Origin: Pelagovum sp. HNIBRBA483
GTDB taxonomy: Bacteria; Pseudomonadota; Alphaproteobacteria; Rhodobacterales; Rhodobacteraceae
Assembly: GCF_040931995.1 (NCBI RefSeq)
Contig: NZ_CP162412.1
Coordinates: forward strand, 2,108,001 to 2,172,000
DNA length: 64,000 nucleotides
Direction: 5' to 3'
Below are positions 9,785-63,397 of this stretch, piece by piece; position 1 is the stretch's first letter, and each line of letters opens with the position of its first letter. The notes beneath the pieces are model-generated. The model searched no databases. It was not told the origin of the DNA and saw nothing but the letters and a program-made list of their open reading frames with translations. Position numbers and translations under genes: made by a program.

Positions 9785-10627
9785 ATGCATATCCCCCCCT
9801 ATGACAATAAAAACGCACCGATCGTCGATGTGGGTGACGCGCGGGTGCCGCTCAACTACTTCAACATCGTCAAACTGACGAAGGGGCAGGCATTCACTTA
9901 TCAGGTGCCGGGGTTCGAAACCTGCGTCGCCCCTGCGACGGGGTCTGTTGACCTTGATATTGAAGGCTATGAGGTCAAAGCACTTGGCAATCGCGGCGTC
10001 GATGTCTGGGACGGGGAGCCGGAAGGCACCTATGTGCCATCTGGAGCGAAGGTGACGATGGTGTGCGTTTCCGACAGTGCGGAAGTGTTCGTTGCGGGCG
10101 CAAAATACGACGAGGTGCTGGACCCGTTCACCGTGCGGCCTGATGAGATTGATCTGGTGCAATACGGATCGGACGACACCAAGACGCATCGCAAGATCAA
10201 GCACATCCTTGGCCAGAAGCAGCATGGCAAGGTGGGGCGCCTGTTGGTGAGCGAGTTGTTTACCGTCGGGCAAGGCGGCTGGTCCGGCTTTCCGAGCCAT
10301 AAGCATGACACCGACCGCCTGCCGAACGAAACGCGCCATGACGAAACCTATAACTTCCGGTTCCGGCCCAATCACGGCTCGGGGATGCAGATGCTCCAGC
10401 GCGAGGATGGCGCTGTTGGCGAGGCTTATCACATCGTCGATGGATCGACCTTTGTGATCGATAATGGCTATCACCCCTGCTGCGCCCTGCCCGGCTACGA
10501 GATGTATTACTTCACCATTCTGGGCGGCCTCTCGCAGCGGAGCCTTGTGCAGTATTTCCAGCCGACCCATGCCTATCAGGTGGAAACAATCCCCGGCATC
10601 AAGGACATGGTGGCGAAGTTCAAATGA
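9785..10627 (+). CDS. iolB: 5-deoxy-glucuronate isomerase
   Basis: 280 residues; the ATG at 9785 follows the kinase stop by one base, with AAAGGAG at the end of the kinase gene as ribosome site. The cupin-type motif SHKHDTDRLPNETRHDETYNF and the later GYHPCCALPGYEMYYF are strongly IolB-like. IolB converts 5-deoxy-glucuronate to 5-dehydro-2-deoxy-gluconate in myo-inositol catabolism. Kinase, isomerase and aldolase are adjacent, so the lower half of the inositol pathway is covered here; IolE and IolD are not in the window. Confidence 0.9.
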   Translation: MHIPPYDNKNAPIVDVGDARVPLNYFNIVKLTKGQAFTYQVPGFETCVAPATGSVDLDIEGYEVKALGNRGVDVWDGEPEGTYVPSGAKVTMVCVSDSAEVFVAGAKYDEVLDPFTVRPDEIDLVQYGSDDTKTHRKIKHILGQKQHGKVGRLLVSELFTVGQGGWSGFPSHKHDTDRLPNETRHDETYNFRFRPNHGSGMQMLQREDGAVGEAYHIVDGSTFVIDNGYHPCCALPGYEMYYFTILGGLSQRSLVQYFQPTHAYQVETIPGIKDMVAKFK

Positions 10628-47038: not shown

Positions 47039-47065
47039 AAACCCGGCGATCACATCGCCGGGTTT
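47039..47065. terminator. Bidirectional terminator between the MBL gene and hemA
   Basis: A perfect 12-bp stem (AAACCCGGCGAT / ATCGCCGGGTTT, 3-base loop) sits between two convergent genes. On the minus strand (hemA) it is followed by TCTCTT after the stem T-run; on the plus strand the stem itself ends in TTT. Confidence 0.8.
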
Positions 47066-56042: not shown

Positions 56043-56780
56043 TCAGCCCAAACCCGAGAACGACGGGAAGGCATCGATCATCCATTGTGCGATAAGATTG
56101 ACGCTGTTGGTCGCGATCAGCGCCGCGAACAGCAACAGCATGAGGCCCATGATCCGCTCGGCATAGGCCAGCGCCCCACGATGACGGGCCACCCACGCAA
56201 GAAACGGGCGCGCAAACAAGGCGGCAATTACAAAGGGGGCCGTCATCGCCACCCCATAAACAGCCAGAAGCGCCGCGCCCTCCCATAGGTTGCCCATGCC
56301 GCCCGCAATCATCAGGATCGAGGCCAAGGCAGGGCCAACGCATGGGGTCCACCCGAAACCGAAGGCGAGCCCCATCACATAGGAACCGGCAATCCCGCGC
56401 GGCTCCCCAGTGGTTTCAAGCCGCGCCTCGCGATACAGGAGCGGAATGCGCATCACGCCCAAAAAGTGCAGCCCGAAGAGCGCTAAAACCGCAGCAGCGA
56501 GGTAGGAGAGCGGCTGCTTCCATTGCAGGAAAAGCTGTCCTAGCGCCGTTGCGCCCATGCCCAGCAGCACAAAAATCGTGGTGACGCCCAAGGCGAAGGC
56601 AATGGACGAAAGCACCAGTCGCCGCTGAGCACCAGCCGCGATTCCGCCTTCGTCGCGCAGTTCCGACATGCTCAATCCGGCCATGTAGCACAGGTAGAAC
56701 GGAACCATCGGCAGAACGCATGGGGTGAAGAAAGACAAAAGCCCCGCCACGGCCGCCCCGATGTAACTGATTTCCAACAT
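56043..56780 (-). CDS. soxV: CcdA-family thiol-disulfide transporter SoxV
   Basis: 245 residues with six hydrophobic segments. The two CcdA redox cysteines are in FFTPCVLPM (Cys21) and FGWTPCVGPA. It carries reducing power from cytoplasmic thioredoxin across the membrane to SoxW. First gene of the soxVW unit, divergent from soxS; the 89-base gap has repeated TTATTC motifs. Confidence 0.94.
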   Translation of the reverse strand: MLEISYIGAAVAGLLSFFTPCVLPMVPFYLCYMAGLSMSELRDEGGIAAGAQRRLVLSSIAFALGVTTIFVLLGMGATALGQLFLQWKQPLSYLAAAVLALFGLHFLGVMRIPLLYREARLETTGEPRGIAGSYVMGLAFGFGWTPCVGPALASILMIAGGMGNLWEGAALLAVYGVAMTAPFVIAALFARPFLAWVARHRGALAYAERIMGLMLLLFAALIATNSVNLIAQWMIDAFPSFSGLG

Positions 56781-56869
56781 GCGCCATCCCTGCCTTATTC
56801 AAATCTTGTCTTATTCATATATTCAAATTATGATAAGTGTTCAGCTATCCGTCAATCGGGATTCAAATC
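56781..56869. promoter_or_regulatory. soxV-soxS divergent regulatory region
   Basis: CTTATTCAAAT (56794-56804), CTTATTCATAT (56810-56820), ATATTCAAAT (about 56819-56828) and GATTCAAATC before soxS are repeated variants of one motif; TTATTCATA is also imperfectly mirrored by TATGATAAG. It shares TCTTATTCATAT with the soxW-soxX gap. Probably the SoxR operator of both divergent units. Confidence 0.65.
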
Positions 56870-57250
56870 ATGCGTGCGTTTCTTCTTAGCCTGCCGCTGG
56901 TCTGGCTTCCGCTCCTCGCCAGTGCGGAAACCGTCAATCTGTTGATGGCGGAGGAAGATGGCTGCATGTGGTGCGCGCGCTGGGAAAGCGACGTCGGCAT
57001 CGAATACCCGAAAACCGCTGAAGGCGCTTCTGCCCCGTTGATCAAACATGACATCCACGCTGATCTGCCGGAGGGCGTCACCCTGACCCGCCCTCTCCAG
57101 TTCACGCCAACCTTCGTGCTGCTTGTTGATGGTGCAGAGGTCGGACGGATCGAAGGCTATCCGGGTGAAGATTTTTTTTGGGGATTGCTCTCGAAGATGA
57201 TTTCGGACGCGGGTATAGAGCCTGTGCAGAAACCGGAAGCCTCTAGCTGA
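56870..57250 (+). CDS. soxS: Thioredoxin-like protein SoxS
   Basis: 126 residues from the ATG at 56870; an in-frame GTG at 56837 would add 11 residues before the signal peptide and is less likely. Signal peptide about residues 1-19 (FLLSLPLVWLPLLASA) and redox motif GCMWC (Cys32, Cys35). SoxS in Paracoccus reactivates SoxYZ and is needed for full thiosulfate oxidation. Followed by soxR after 99 bases. Confidence 0.88.
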   Translation: MRAFLLSLPLVWLPLLASAETVNLLMAEEDGCMWCARWESDVGIEYPKTAEGASAPLIKHDIHADLPEGVTLTRPLQFTPTFVLLVDGAEVGRIEGYPGEDFFWGLLSKMISDAGIEPVQKPEASS

Positions 57251-57349
57251 CCGGCCAAGCCAAGGAACACACATCGAAAAATTGTGTTTCTTGCGAGTAT
57301 ATGGTAGGCAAAGCTATACTTAGCATAATAGCGCGCAGGGACGCGGACT

Positions 57350-57682
57350 ATGGGTATTCCAATTATTGACGACCAAATTGACGAAGCCGGTCTGGACGAA
57401 TTGGTAAGCAACGCGACGGATGCGGCGAATTTCCTGAAAGCGATCAGCCATGAGGGACGGCTGATGATTTTGTGCCATCTGGCATCGGGAGAAAAATCGG
57501 TCACCGAACTCGAAGACCTGCTCTCGGCGCGGCAGGCGGCTGTTTCGCAACAGCTCGCGCGGCTGCGGCTCGAAGGGCTTGTGACGCCGCGACGTGACGG
57601 CAAGACGATCTACTACCGCTTGACGGACGACAGACCGCGCCAGATTATTGATTTGGTCTACGACCTATTCTGCACACGATAA
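57350..57682 (+). CDS. soxR: ArsR-family repressor SoxR
   Basis: 110 residues. Winged helix-turn-helix of the ArsR type: LKAISHEGRLMILCHLASGEKSV cut to AISHEGRLMILCHL, then the recognition helix ARQAAVSQQLARLR and the wing TPRRDGKTIYYRL. Cys residues near the helix and C-terminus may sense persulfide as in SqrR/BigR relatives. SoxR represses the sox genes in the absence of thiosulfate or its products. Located between soxS and soxT. Confidence 0.92.
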   Translation: MGIPIIDDQIDEAGLDELVSNATDAANFLKAISHEGRLMILCHLASGEKSVTELEDLLSARQAAVSQQLARLRLEGLVTPRRDGKTIYYRLTDDRPRQIIDLVYDLFCTR

Positions 57683-57726
57683 GGAGGAAACCGCCGTGGT
57701 AACGGCGGTTTCGATGGGAGGACGCC

Positions 57727-58785
57727 GTGTGGATTGATGTTATCGGCGAGGGAAACCTCGCTGCGATTATTGGCGGGATCGGTGGTATCCTGCTCGGGCT
57801 TGCTGCCCGATTGGGCCGCTTTTGCACACTCGGCGCCATCGAGGATTTCTTTTACGGTGAATCTGACATTCGCCTGCGGATGTGGGGCGTCGCACTAGGG
57901 GTAGCGATCATTGGCACTTTCGCCTTGAGCGCGACTGGGCTGCTGTCCCTGCCCGAAACAATCTACCTTGATTTCCGGTGGATGCCGCTTGCGAGCATCG
58001 CGGGCGGGCTTGTATTCGGGTACGGCATGGCACTCGCGGGCAATTGCGGCTACGGCGCGTTGGCGCGTTTGGGTGGCGGTGACCTGCGCAATTTCATGAT
58101 CGTCCTCGTGATGGGCATTGCAGCCTATGCAACGATCTCCGGTCCATTTGCCTATGTCCGCGTTTGGCTATTTCCGGCCGAGCGCGCAGCTGAGCATATT
58201 CCGGGAATTGCCCACAGCATTGCCAATTGGACAGGCTTCGCGCCTTCTACAATCGGGATTATCATTGGCGCGCTTATCCTCGGGTTCACCCTTGCTCCCG
58301 CGCGGGTCAGGCAGGAACGAAAAACTATTTTCTGGGGGGCCATCGCGGGGCTATCGGTGATCATTGCATGGGCCGGAACACAGTGGATCGCCCGGAATGG
58401 CTTTGAGGAGCTTCAGGTTGTTTCCCACACATTTGCAGCACCGCTCGGCGAGTCCATTCTTTGGACAATGACCGCGTCAGGCACCACGCTCAGTTTTGCG
58501 CTCGGCTCGGTCGCGGGGGTTTGGATCGGCGCGTTCATCGGTTCGCTGATCAAAGGGCATTTCCGCTGGGAAGCTTGTGAAGATCCGCGCGAATTGCGGC
58601 GGCAAATCTTTGGCGCGGCGTTGATGGGTGTTGGTGCGGTTGTGGCGATGGGATGCAGTATCGGGCAAGGGCTGTCGGCCTTCTCGGTGCTGGCGTGGTC
58701 CGCGCCGATCACCGTCATGGCGATCTTCGCAGGGGCGGCCTTGGGACTGAGGCAGTTGATTACCGGATTTTCGATCGCAGAGTGA
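57727..58785 (+). CDS. soxT: YeeE/YedE family transporter (SoxT-like)
   Basis: 352 residues from GTG at 57727 with GGGAGGA 5 bases upstream. About nine hydrophobic segments and the two Cys-containing signature loops GMALAGNCGYGALARLGGGD (about residues 98-117) and GCSIGQGLSAFS near the C-terminus mark the YeeE/YedE thiosulfate-transporter family. SoxT lies beside soxSRV in Paracoccus and its relatives and may import a sulfur compound for signalling or use. Converges on the decarboxylase gene 2 bases away. Confidence 0.88.
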   Translation: MWIDVIGEGNLAAIIGGIGGILLGLAARLGRFCTLGAIEDFFYGESDIRLRMWGVALGVAIIGTFALSATGLLSLPETIYLDFRWMPLASIAGGLVFGYGMALAGNCGYGALARLGGGDLRNFMIVLVMGIAAYATISGPFAYVRVWLFPAERAAEHIPGIAHSIANWTGFAPSTIGIIIGALILGFTLAPARVRQERKTIFWGAIAGLSVIIAWAGTQWIARNGFEELQVVSHTFAAPLGESILWTMTASGTTLSFALGSVAGVWIGAFIGSLIKGHFRWEACEDPRELRRQIFGAALMGVGAVVAMGCSIGQGLSAFSVLAWSAPITVMAIFAGAALGLRQLITGFSIAE

Positions 58786-58787
58786 CG

Positions 58788-59918
58788 CTAAAGCGTTGCG
58801 ACCGTGACAGTCTCGCAGCGCCCGTAGCCGTTAAACCGCGTGGTAACGCCTGTCAGATAGGCTCCCATCGACCGGAACAGGAGCCAGTCATCCTCCCGTG
58901 TATCAGAGGGGAGCTCCAACGCTTCTGGCAATTTGTCGATGCTGTCACAGGTCGGGCCAAAGGCGACACGGGCGACACTTTCGCCGGTGCGCGGTGTACC
59001 GTCCCTGCTGATCACCTCGAACGTAGGCATATGCATCGATAGGAATTCCGACAGCCCGCCATAGATGCCGTCATTCAGGTAAACCCGTCCCGCGCGCAGT
59101 GATTTGATGCGGACGGCATAGGCATAGCTGTCAGCAACAAGCGCCCTACCCGGCTCACACAAGAGCGCGGGGCGGTCAGCAAAAGCCGCATCAACTGCCT
59201 CTTTGATCGCCGCGAAGAAGCGGCCATACTCCGGTGCTGCGCCCTGCCGCGCAGACGGGAAACCGCCCCCAACATTGAGCCGCGAAATGCGAACATCGGC
59301 ACGCTGCGCGATATCCGCAGCAGCTGCGATGTAGCGGGCATATGCCCCCGGCCGTTGGCATTGTGTGCCAACATGAAAGGTCAGCGCCGGTCGCCAACCT
59401 GCCTCGGAGACGCATCGCAACAACGCCACCGCCTGATCCGGCGTGGCGCCGAATTTATCGCCAAAATTGTAATGCCCGCCTTCGACGTCGAGGCAGAAGC
59501 GCACGCTGACTTCATTGTAAAGCTCAAGCCCCGCCGCAGCCATTTTCCGCAACTCGCCCGCATCGTCAACCGACCATGACCGCACCCCCGCGCGACGGGC
59601 TGCCGCGATCTCGGCGCTGCTGCGCACGGGATTGTTGTAGTGCATTGGTACGGCGGACCCGCAGAGCCGCTGTACGCTCTCTATCTCCGTCGGGGAGGCA
59701 ACATCGAAACCGGCAAGCCCCCTGCCCCAAAGCCGCGCCACGACCCGATCAGACGGGTTCGCCTTGACCGCATAGGTCACATCCCCCGCGAAGCCGTTCA
59801 CGAAATCATCCAACCGCCGGTCCAGCGCTGCGGGCGCGAAAAAATGCACCGGCATATCCGGTTGGAAACGCTGCAAATAAGATGCTGGGCAATCTGCTTT
59901 TTCCAAGCGCTGCAACAT
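58788..59918 (-). CDS. Ornithine/lysine/diaminopimelate-type decarboxylase (type III PLP)
   Basis: 376 residues from the ATG at 59918, supported by GGCGGAGG upstream; in-frame codons farther up run into the promoter region. Alanine-racemase fold: TYAVKANPSD with PLP Lys near residue 47, FHVGTQCQRP, LNVGGGFPSA, LCEPGRALVADS, and FGPTCDSIDKL with the catalytic Cys near the C-terminus. The FGPTCDS motif is typical of eukaryotic-type ornithine decarboxylases. Putrescine made here would feed the carboxyspermidine pathway at 38.8-41.2 kb. A divergent AsnC/Lrp regulator probably controls it. Confidence 0.88.
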   Translation of the reverse strand: MLQRLEKADCPASYLQRFQPDMPVHFFAPAALDRRLDDFVNGFAGDVTYAVKANPSDRVVARLWGRGLAGFDVASPTEIESVQRLCGSAVPMHYNNPVRSSAEIAAARRAGVRSWSVDDAGELRKMAAAGLELYNEVSVRFCLDVEGGHYNFGDKFGATPDQAVALLRCVSEAGWRPALTFHVGTQCQRPGAYARYIAAAADIAQRADVRISRLNVGGGFPSARQGAAPEYGRFFAAIKEAVDAAFADRPALLCEPGRALVADSYAYAVRIKSLRAGRVYLNDGIYGGLSEFLSMHMPTFEVISRDGTPRTGESVARVAFGPTCDSIDKLPEALELPSDTREDDWLLFRSMGAYLTGVTTRFNGYGRCETVTVATL

Positions 59919-60015
59919 GGGAACCTCCGCCTCGATCTTTATTATTGCTCTTAGTTTACGGTGGGAAATGTCAGACTGACTCAGCACTTTGCGCAAAAAT
60001 GCTTATCATTAATCA

Positions 60016-60040
60016 ATAATGCCGATAATATCGGCATTAT
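60016..60040. promoter_or_regulatory. 25-base perfect inverted repeat overlapping the Lrp-type gene start
   Basis: Two 11-base arms (left arm ATAATGCCGAT) flank an AAT spacer; the right arm contains the first two bases of the ATG at 60039. It lies between the divergent decarboxylase and regulator genes and is the obvious operator for the AsnC/Lrp protein. Confidence 0.75.
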
Positions 60041-60479
60041 GACGGAACTGGATGACATCGACCGCCGCTTGATCGCAGAACTTTCCGCCAATGCGCGATT
60101 GCCGACTTCGGCGCTGGCGGCGCGTGTCGGAATTGCCCGCACCACCGCCCAAGCACGGATCGAGCGGTTGGAGCGGGCGGGCGTGATTGCGGGTTACACG
60201 CTGCGACTGAGCGAGGACACGCTGCGCAATGCTATCCGCGCGACGGTGCTCGTCCATATCACCCCCGCCGCGCAAACCAATGTGCTGAACCAACTGCGCC
60301 GCCTGCCTGCGGTGGAGCGCGTACACACAACATCGGGGCGCTTTGATCTGGCTTGCCAGTTGCGCACCGAGTCCACCGGCGCGCTGGACGATACGCTCGA
60401 CCGGATCGGTGCGATTGACGGGGTGATGGCGCTGGAAAGCCTGATCCACCTCTCGACCAAGATCGACCGTAGCGCCTAA
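60039..60479 (+). CDS. AsnC/Lrp family transcriptional regulator
   Basis: 146 residues from the ATG at 60039. The N-terminal helix-turn-helix reads LDDIDRRLIAELSANARLPTSAL then GIARTTAQARIERLE; the RAM ligand-binding domain follows (VLVHITPAAQTNVLNQL; TTSGRFDLACQL). No Shine-Dalgarno is present and the start lies inside an inverted repeat, so the mRNA may be leaderless or the true start may be farther upstream (in-frame GTG at 59961). It is divergent from the decarboxylase gene and likely regulates it. Confidence 0.88.
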   Translation: MTELDDIDRRLIAELSANARLPTSALAARVGIARTTAQARIERLERAGVIAGYTLRLSEDTLRNAIRATVLVHITPAAQTNVLNQLRRLPAVERVHTTSGRFDLACQLRTESTGALDDTLDRIGAIDGVMALESLIHLSTKIDRSA

Positions 60480-60550
60480 GGGCGGCAGAGAGGGCTTTTC
60501 CTCCGCCGCCCCCCGCGTTAGATGGTCCCGACGAATAAGGGACCGCGATC

Positions 60551-63397
60551 ATGGCAATGGAAAAGACCTTTAACGCAGCCGAGGCTGAAGCCCGCATTTT
60601 TGAGGCTTGGACCAATTCTGGCAGCTTCCGCGCAGGCGCGAACGCGAAGCCGGATGCAGAGAGCTTCACCATCATGATCCCGCCGCCGAACGTGACCGGC
60701 GCGCTGCATATGGGCCATGCGTTCAACAACACGTTGCAGGATATCCTGATCCGCTGGCACCGCATGCGCGGCTTTAACACGCTCTGGCAACCGGGGCAGG
60801 ACCATGCAGGCATCGCGACGCAGCTTCAGGTCGAGAAAATGCTCGCCGCCCAAGGCAATGCGGGCCGCCGCGAACTCGGGCGCGAGAAGTTCCTTGAAAA
60901 GGTCTGGGAGTGGAAGGGCCAATACGGTGACACCATCGTCAATCAGCTCAAACGGTTGGGCTGTTCCTGCGACTGGGAACGCAACGCCTTCACCATGTCC
61001 GGAGCGCCGGGTGCGCCCGAGAGCGACCAGAGCGGCAACTTCCACGATGCGGTGATCAAGGTCTTCGTCGATATGTACGAAAAGGGCCTGATCTATCGCG
61101 GCAAGCGGCTGGTGAACTGGGATCCGCATTTCGAGACAGCGATTTCTGACCTCGAGGTCGAGAATATCGAAGTCGACGGCCATATGTGGCACTTCAAATA
61201 CCCGCTCGCAGGTGGCGAAACCTACACCTATATCGAGAAGGACGAGGACGGGAATATCATCCTCGAAGAAGAGCGCGATTACATCTCTATCGCCACCACC
61301 CGCCCCGAAACGATGCTGGGCGATGGCGCGGTCGCGGTGCATCCCTCTGATGAACGCTATGCGCCGATCGTGGGCAAGCTGTGCGAAATTCCGGTTGGGC
61401 CAAAAGAGCATCGCCGCTTGATCCCGATCATCGTCGATGAATACCCCGATCCGACCTTTGGCTCCGGCGCGGTGAAGATCACCGGTGCGCATGATTTCAA
61501 CGACTATCAAGTCGCCAGGCGTGGCGGCATCCCAATGTACCGCCTGATGGACACGCGCGGCCAGATGCGGGCCGATGGCGCGCCCTACGCCGAGGAAGCC
61601 GCAAAGGCGCAGGGCTTTGCCAAGGGTGATGCATTTACCGAAGCCACCGTCGATGCGATCAACCTCGTGCCGGAAGAATATCGCGGGCTGGACCGCTTCG
61701 AGGCACGCAAGCGCGTCGTGGCCGACATAGATGCCGAAGGGCTGATGATCACCATTGAAGACAAGAAGATCATGCAGCCGTTTGGCGACCGCTCAGGCGT
61801 GGTCATCGAGCCGATGCTGACCGACCAATGGTTTGTCGATGCGCAGAAGGTTGTTGGCCCCGCGCTGGATGCAGTGCGCGAAGGGCGCACCAAGATAATC
61901 CCTGAAAGTGGCGAAAAGACTTACTACCATTGGCTCGAAAATATCGAGCCGTGGTGTATCTCCCGCCAGCTTTGGTGGGGGCACCAGATTCCGGTTTGGT
62001 TCGATGCCGAGGGCAACGAATACTGCGCCGCGACCGAGGAGGAAGCGCAAGCCAAAGCAGGCGCTGGCGTCGCCCTGACCCGCGACCCTGACGTGCTAGA
62101 TACATGGTTCTCTTCCGGCCTTTGGCCCATCGGCACGCTCGGCTGGCCCGAAAAGACGCCGGAGATGGAGAAATACTTCCCCACCGATGTGCTGATCACC
62201 GGATTTGACATCCTGTTCTTCTGGGTGGCGCGGATGATGATGATGCAATTGGCCGTCGTCGATCAGGAGCCGTTCCACACGGTCTACCTGCATCAATTGG
62301 TGCGGGACGAAAAAGGGCAGAAGATGTCCAAGACCAAGGGCAATGTCATCGACCCGCTTGAAATCATTGATGAATACGGCGCAGACGCACTGCGCTTCAC
62401 CAATGCCTCGATGGCGGCGATTGGCGGTGTGCTGAAGCTTTCGAAAGATCGCATTCAGGGCTACCGGAACTTTGGTACCAAGCTATGGAATGCCTGCCGC
62501 TTTGCCGAGATGAACGGCGTCTTCGAATCGCATTCAGGCAGCACCGCGATCCCGACCGCCACGCAAACGGTGAACAAGTGGATCATCGGCGAAACCGCCC
62601 GCGTGCGCGAAGAGGTGGATGCCGCGCTAGAAGCCTATCGCTTCAACGATGCCGCCAATGCGCTGTACGCCTTTGTTTGGGGTAAGGTCTGTGACTGGTA
62701 TGTGGAGTTCTCCAAGCCGCTCCTGATGGATGGATCCGATGCTGAGAAGCTGGAAACCCAGCAGACGATGGGCTGGGTGCTGGGTCAATGTCTGGTTCTG
62801 CTGCACCCGATCATGCCTTACATTACAGAAGAGCTTTGGGGGCTGATGGGCACACGTTCGAAAATGCTCGTCCATGCGGATTGGCCGAACTATGCCGCTG
62901 CCGATCTGGTTGACGCTGCCGCAGACGCGGAGATGAACTGGGCGATTTCGCTGATCGAAGGTGTGCGTTCTGCCCGCGCCCAGATGAACGTGCCGGTGGG
63001 TCTGCGCATTCCGGTGCTGCAACTGGATGCGGACGATGCCGCCAAAACCGCGCTTGCCAACAATGAAACCCTGATCAAGCGCCTTGCGCGGATCGAAGGG
63101 ATCGACAGCGTCGAGAGCGCCCCGAAAGGCGCGATCACGGTGCCTACGGCGGGTGCAACCTTTGCCCTGCCGCTGGCCGACATCATTGATGTGGACGCTG
63201 AAAAGGCACGCCTATCGAAAGTGCTCGGCAAGCTGGAAAAGGAGCTTGGCGGCCTGCGTGGGCGGTTGAACAACCCCAAATTCGTGGCCTCCGCGCCCGA
63301 AGAGGTGGTCGAAGAAGCCCGCGAGAACCTGCGCCTGCGCGAAGAGGAAGAGGGCCAGCTGAAAGCCGCCCTTGCGCGGCTGGAGGAAATCGGTTGA
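60551..63397 (+). CDS. valS: Valyl-tRNA synthetase
   Basis: 948 residues. Class I synthetase: HIGH-type [17 protein letters not shown] near residues 39-55, the editing domain in between, and [13 protein letters not shown] for KMSKS near residue 595. A coiled-coil arm ends the protein (about residues 875-945: [21 protein letters not shown] and [18 protein letters not shown]). Charges tRNA-Val. An essential housekeeping gene; no visible link to its neighbours. Confidence 0.98.

Follow-up and report, generated by a model that had tools for sequence, protein, structure and literature searches.

The window (the whole 64,000-nt stretch of DNA analyzed here) contains, at 60039–60479 on the (+) strand, a gene for an Lrp/AsnC-type regulator of 146 aa. 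Its product combines an N-terminal AsnC-type HTH domain (PF13404; 53.7 bits, 1.8e-14) with a C-terminal RAM domain (PF01037; 46.9 bits, 2.6e-12), as characteristic of the Lrp/AsnC family, and both domains scored above the cut-off. Against the NCBIfam equivalogs LysM, AsnC, and Lrp, its best score was 72.4 bits, below the curated cut-off of 180. A divergent ornithine/lysine-decarboxylase-like gene occupies 58788–59918 on the (−) strand (PF02784, 9.4e-33; PDB ornithine decarboxylases, 1.6e-33), starting at 59918 with a Shine-Dalgarno (SD) sequence GGAGG at 59924–59928, and a gap of 120 bp separates it from the regulator. Downstream on the (+) strand lies a valyl-tRNA synthetase-like (valS) gene (60551–63397; named from a reading of the sequence only), which adjoins the regulator in many relatives. 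Between the regulator stop and the valS-like start, two strong hairpins are present at 60480–60545 (fold of 60478–60556: −37.1 kcal/mol, z −2.7); this sequence is closely retained in the Marivivens relative described below and is possibly a terminator or leader structure. Beyond the decarboxylase-like gene, the genes at 56043–58785 resemble, by names taken from sequence reading only, a CcdA-like membrane protein, a thioredoxin-like protein, an ArsR-type regulator with two Cys residues (ILCHL and LFCTR), and a YeeE/YedE-like transporter, a set that on those names recalls the sulfide-responsive BigR/SqrR clusters. An 11-bp perfect inverted repeat (GAAACCGCCGT/ACGGCGGTTTC, 57687–57712) between the ArsR-type and YeeE-like genes may be an operator or a terminator.

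A search of GTDB genomes yielded 80 relatives, making 81 loci with the window, and the divergent ornithine-decarboxylase-like gene stands beside the regulator in all 81. No account of this regulator-decarboxylase pair turned up in searches of the literature. The nearest relative is a Marivivens MAG of the same genus (L010), with a 99% identical protein. Thirty sequences (the window, L044–L069, and L071–L073) form a clade with a common start and no strong SD.

The position of the regulator ATG (60039–60041) is conserved across these 30 clade members. An alternative start is the in-frame GTG at 59961 mentioned in the earlier note, in which case the inverted repeat described below would be internal to the gene. 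The frame is indeed open from this GTG (172-aa ORF), but we consider such a start highly improbable because the GTG is not conserved among relatives and in-frame stops lie close upstream of the ATG in several of them; specifically, the extension closes after just 8 codons in L057, 14 in L058, 19 in L066, and 20 in L049. Moreover, the GTG has no SD upstream, and in the short form the family match starts from residue 4.

A perfect palindrome of 25 bp, ATAATGCCGATA-A-TATCGGCATTAT, runs from 60016 to 60040, with fully (100%) complementary 12-nt arms at 60016–60027 and 60029–60040 and 1 nt between them. A60039 and T60040 of the regulator ATG fall inside it, so the perfect inverted repeat through the first two bases of the start codon that the earlier note reported is real; drawn as a hairpin, it has 11 pairs and a 3-nt loop. 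The palindrome exceeds chance for its location: arms of at least 11 with a spacer of no more than 3 have a P of about 5e-5 in a 142-nt stretch of the same base composition, and arms of exactly 12 (spacer 0–8) are expected about 0.1 times per 64 kb. The window holds one other perfect inverted repeat with 12-nt arms, the terminator-like AAACCCGGCGAT/ATCGCCGGGTTT at 47039–47065. A reading as a repeated genomic element was rejected, since further copies were absent from the 64-kb window at ≤3 mismatches and, at ≤2 mismatches, from the rest of the genome and from 294 additional genomes of the family.

To avoid circularity, the operator motif was derived from 51 distant loci only, with the clade of the window excluded; 23 dyads in these loci gave a 17-bp motif with the consensus TTCGTCATAATGACGAA, of the type TTCGTCA-N3-TGACGAA. 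The half-site TGMCGA occurs 54 times in the distant set (9.7 expected) and 32 times in the clade (5.5 expected), and relaxed dyads at spacer 3 number 23 and 8, respectively, compared with about 0.1 expected. When the clade was scanned with this motif, the five best centers, relative to the start codon, were −21 (mean score 8.2), −1 (5.7), −64 (−2.9), −51 (−4.2), and −42 (−12.6), whereas the largest column mean in 2,000 random-shift controls was −18.6. In an alignment of the 30 sequences at the ATG, short blocks (GnCA and TGnC) stand out as sharply conserved, beginning at −69 and reaching into codon 2, although counts of this conservation overstate independence because the clade members share ancestry.

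In the window, the best of the five is the predicted dyad ATCGGCATTATGACGGA at 60030–60046 (center 60038, −1), whose position is conserved in the 30 sequences. It takes in the start codon as well as parts of codons 2 and 3 and, with a score of 19.7, ranks second in the 64 kb; the best dyad of the Marivivens relative likewise lies at −1 (score 13.7). Codon 2 is ACN in 27 of the 30 clade sequences, and Thr as residue 2 could be retained for other reasons. In L045, L047, and L049, ATGATC replaces ATGAC at the start, and the codon-2 half-site is therefore altered in these three relatives; their −21 and −64 dyads are still present. The predicted dyad at −21 (60010–60026, center 60018), the strongest across the clade, scores −4.1 in the window, where its left half is lost and only the right half, TGCCGA, is retained. 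Further upstream, the predicted dyad at −64 (59967–59983, center 59975; core GTCA-GAC-TGAC) scores 6.5, a weak one at −51 (59980–59996, center 59988) scores −1.2, and a very weak one at −42 (59989–60005, center 59997) scores −15.0. The centers −64, −42, −21, and −1 lie ~21 bp apart, with −42 being weak and −51 falling outside this helical register. The single best motif match of the window (ATCGTCAAACTGACGAA, 9867–9883; score 20.7) was rejected as a regulator site and taken as chance because it falls within an iolB-like coding region. A genome-wide scan allowing one mismatch gave 68 matches compared with 30 for the reversed control and is thus too loose for naming a regulon.

These data recast the palindrome. 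Its own center scores −22.0 with the motif from relatives, compared with +19.7 for the start-codon dyad, and we therefore rejected it as the regulator's dyad. Because the relatives show the dyad TCGKCA-N3-TGMCGA, with 60030–60046 as the unit, we read the palindrome as half-sites of two neighboring units: inside it, TGCCGA (right half-site at −21) faces TCGGCA (left half-site at −1). The A/T flanks that complete the perfect palindrome arose by chance or are specific to the window; in the same-genus Marivivens relative, 8 of the 12 palindrome pairs are kept and the pairing is partly lost. Thus, of the earlier proposal of an operator over the start codon, the placement of the start codon within a probable operator holds, while the 25-base palindrome itself does not stand as the operator unit.

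The conserved half-sites may instead belong to another regulator and not to the adjacent Lrp/AsnC protein, a reading to which we give a low probability. The genome does contain paralogues (its Lrp-like matches number 10, including the regulator gene itself); however, the motif accompanies the regulator-decarboxylase gene pair through the relatives, and the size and spacing of the dyads agree with the Lrp family. Specifically, Lrp dimers generally occupy sites of 13–17 bp, with center-to-center distances of two or three helical turns known (PMC2995911), and the predicted dyads are pseudopalindromes of this size, spaced, apart from that at −51, by approximately whole helical turns.

The repeat could also act in RNA, as the earlier note suggested. 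If the mRNA started upstream, e.g., from a −10 TATCAT at 60004–60009, the palindrome hairpin would hide the AUG and control would be translational. The fold is stable in the window (11 pairs, 3-nt loop, −13.4 kcal/mol, z −6.2), but relatives retain only 3 to 8 of the 12 pairs, with folding energies from −2 to −16.5 kcal/mol, and the most variable core pair of the stem shows no significant covariation. TATCAT is not retained in the same-genus relative, and an SD is absent 3′ of the hairpin. We therefore rejected hairpin control, in which conserved pairing would be expected, and regard a translational switch of this kind as very unlikely. In Rfam, nothing came near the gathering score. The further suggestion that the protein separately blocks translation found no support, and promoter occlusion, as proposed below, would cover it.

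As the earlier note had stated, the regulator of the window has no SD before its ATG, the best anti-SD match in range being 3 nt (TAA). A candidate −10 element, TAATAT, lies at 60026–60031 on the (+) strand, 7 bp before the ATG, which would place the transcript start at A60039 or one base before. The TA at −13/−12 is present in 20 of the 30 clade sequences (next best position: 4), and no other TA across the 70 bp is strongly conserved. A candidate weak −35, TTATCA (60003–60008, (+) strand; TTACCA in the same-genus relative), precedes it by a 17-bp spacer (TTATCA-N17-TAATAT); this −35 is poor and not convincingly conserved in the clade, whose best TTGACA-like match lies at −41 with a 22-bp spacer from the −10. 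A sigma-70 promoter scan returned no promoter. Alphaproteobacterial promoters are frequently without the last T of the −10, with a usual gap of 6 bp between −10 and start (PMC8407463), and in S. meliloti, 171 transcript starts were located at the start codon (PMC3616915).

Ten of the 30 clade members, including most Limimaricola, carry AGGA or AAGG 8–10 nt before the ATG, in the place expected for the −10; this could be a weak SD with a short leader there. Among the 20 members without it, TA at −13 is found in 17 (next position: 4). An operator over the start codon combined with a short leader (about 5–25 nt) and a weak or absent SD would make the strict term "leaderless" wrong. Both the AGGA at a spacing of 8 in part of the clade and the conserved TTGACT-like sequence at −41, which with a 17-bp spacer would set the start near −6, speak for such a leader, but the window has no SD and strong conservation of TA is confined to −13, and we hold this arrangement to be unlikely. 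In the window, the missing SD and a candidate −10 suitably spaced from the ATG point to the possibility already raised in the earlier note, namely a leaderless or nearly leaderless regulator mRNA, which would probably begin at the AUG or only a few bases from it.

Precedents exist for a leaderless self-regulated regulator gene and for helically phased Lrp sites. In Rhodobacter sphaeroides, a member of the same bacterial family, acuR is leaderless and self-regulated, with an operator that overlaps its promoter (PMC3017554); the regulator comes first in the acuR-acuI-dddL mRNA, which starts from the AUG without an SD (PMC3017554). An inverted-repeat operator overlapping the promoter and self-repression are predicted from sequence here as well. 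However, AcuR is a TetR-type protein with its operator in the promoter, while here the regulator is of the Lrp/AsnC type and the last predicted dyad extends across both the start codon and codon 2. The domains, the 13- to 17-bp pseudopalindromes about two helical turns apart, and the position of the control region next to the regulator all resemble Lrp/AsnC autoregulation (PMC2995911), but here the terminal predicted dyad coincides with the start codon of a probably leaderless bacterial gene. A mechanistic parallel to what we propose is Pyrococcus furiosus LrpA, a dimer of which sterically blocks RNA polymerase just downstream of its own promoter element (PMC2995911), although with archaeal promoter machinery. 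A predicted operator at the start of the regulator gene fits known self-regulation, and the unusual aspect is that its overlap with the ATG and codon 2 is fixed across 30 related sequences.

From the sequence features, conservation, and gene pairing observed here, we infer binding by the regulator, repression, and the position of the transcript start, and negative autoregulation by an Lrp array appears most likely. The regulator would bind a row of 15- to 17-bp dyads (TCGKCA-N3-TGMCGA) in the 120-bp gap to the decarboxylase gene, with the last dyad centered one base before the start codon; TG of the ATG and AC of codon 2 would therefore form one half-site. RNA polymerase would use the −10 (−13 to −8), which is flanked by the −21 and −1 half-sites, and transcription would begin at the A of the ATG or within a few bases of it, so the mRNA would be leaderless or nearly so and translated without an SD. 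A bound dimer would occlude the edge of the −10 together with +1 and the start codon, silencing the gene at the level of transcription; upstream dimers may assist repression, and the upstream dyads may tie the regulator to the divergent decarboxylase promoter. On balance, we favor this combination, i.e., a dyad array ending on the start codon, a leaderless or nearly leaderless mRNA, transcriptional autorepression, and a link to the divergent promoter, as the probable explanation. As a guess from the neighboring gene, the ligand may be ornithine, lysine, or another such amino acid or polyamine precursor.

As the case illustrates, a perfect palindrome, however striking, is not necessarily the binding unit and can consist of two half-sites of neighboring dimers. 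It also offers a clear, testable predicted operator motif for an uncharacterized, decarboxylase-paired Lrp/AsnC regulator across Rhodobacterales and adds, after acuR, a further candidate for a leaderless self-regulated regulator in this order. More tentatively, and with somewhat less than even confidence, we suggest that the array came to rest on the start codon in one Rhodobacteraceae clade, with ATG-AC serving there as transcript start, initiation codon, Thr2 codon, and half-site; in many more distant relatives, the dyad lies upstream of the start. If this is true, the N-terminus, the leaderless start, and repression would be locked together in the clade.
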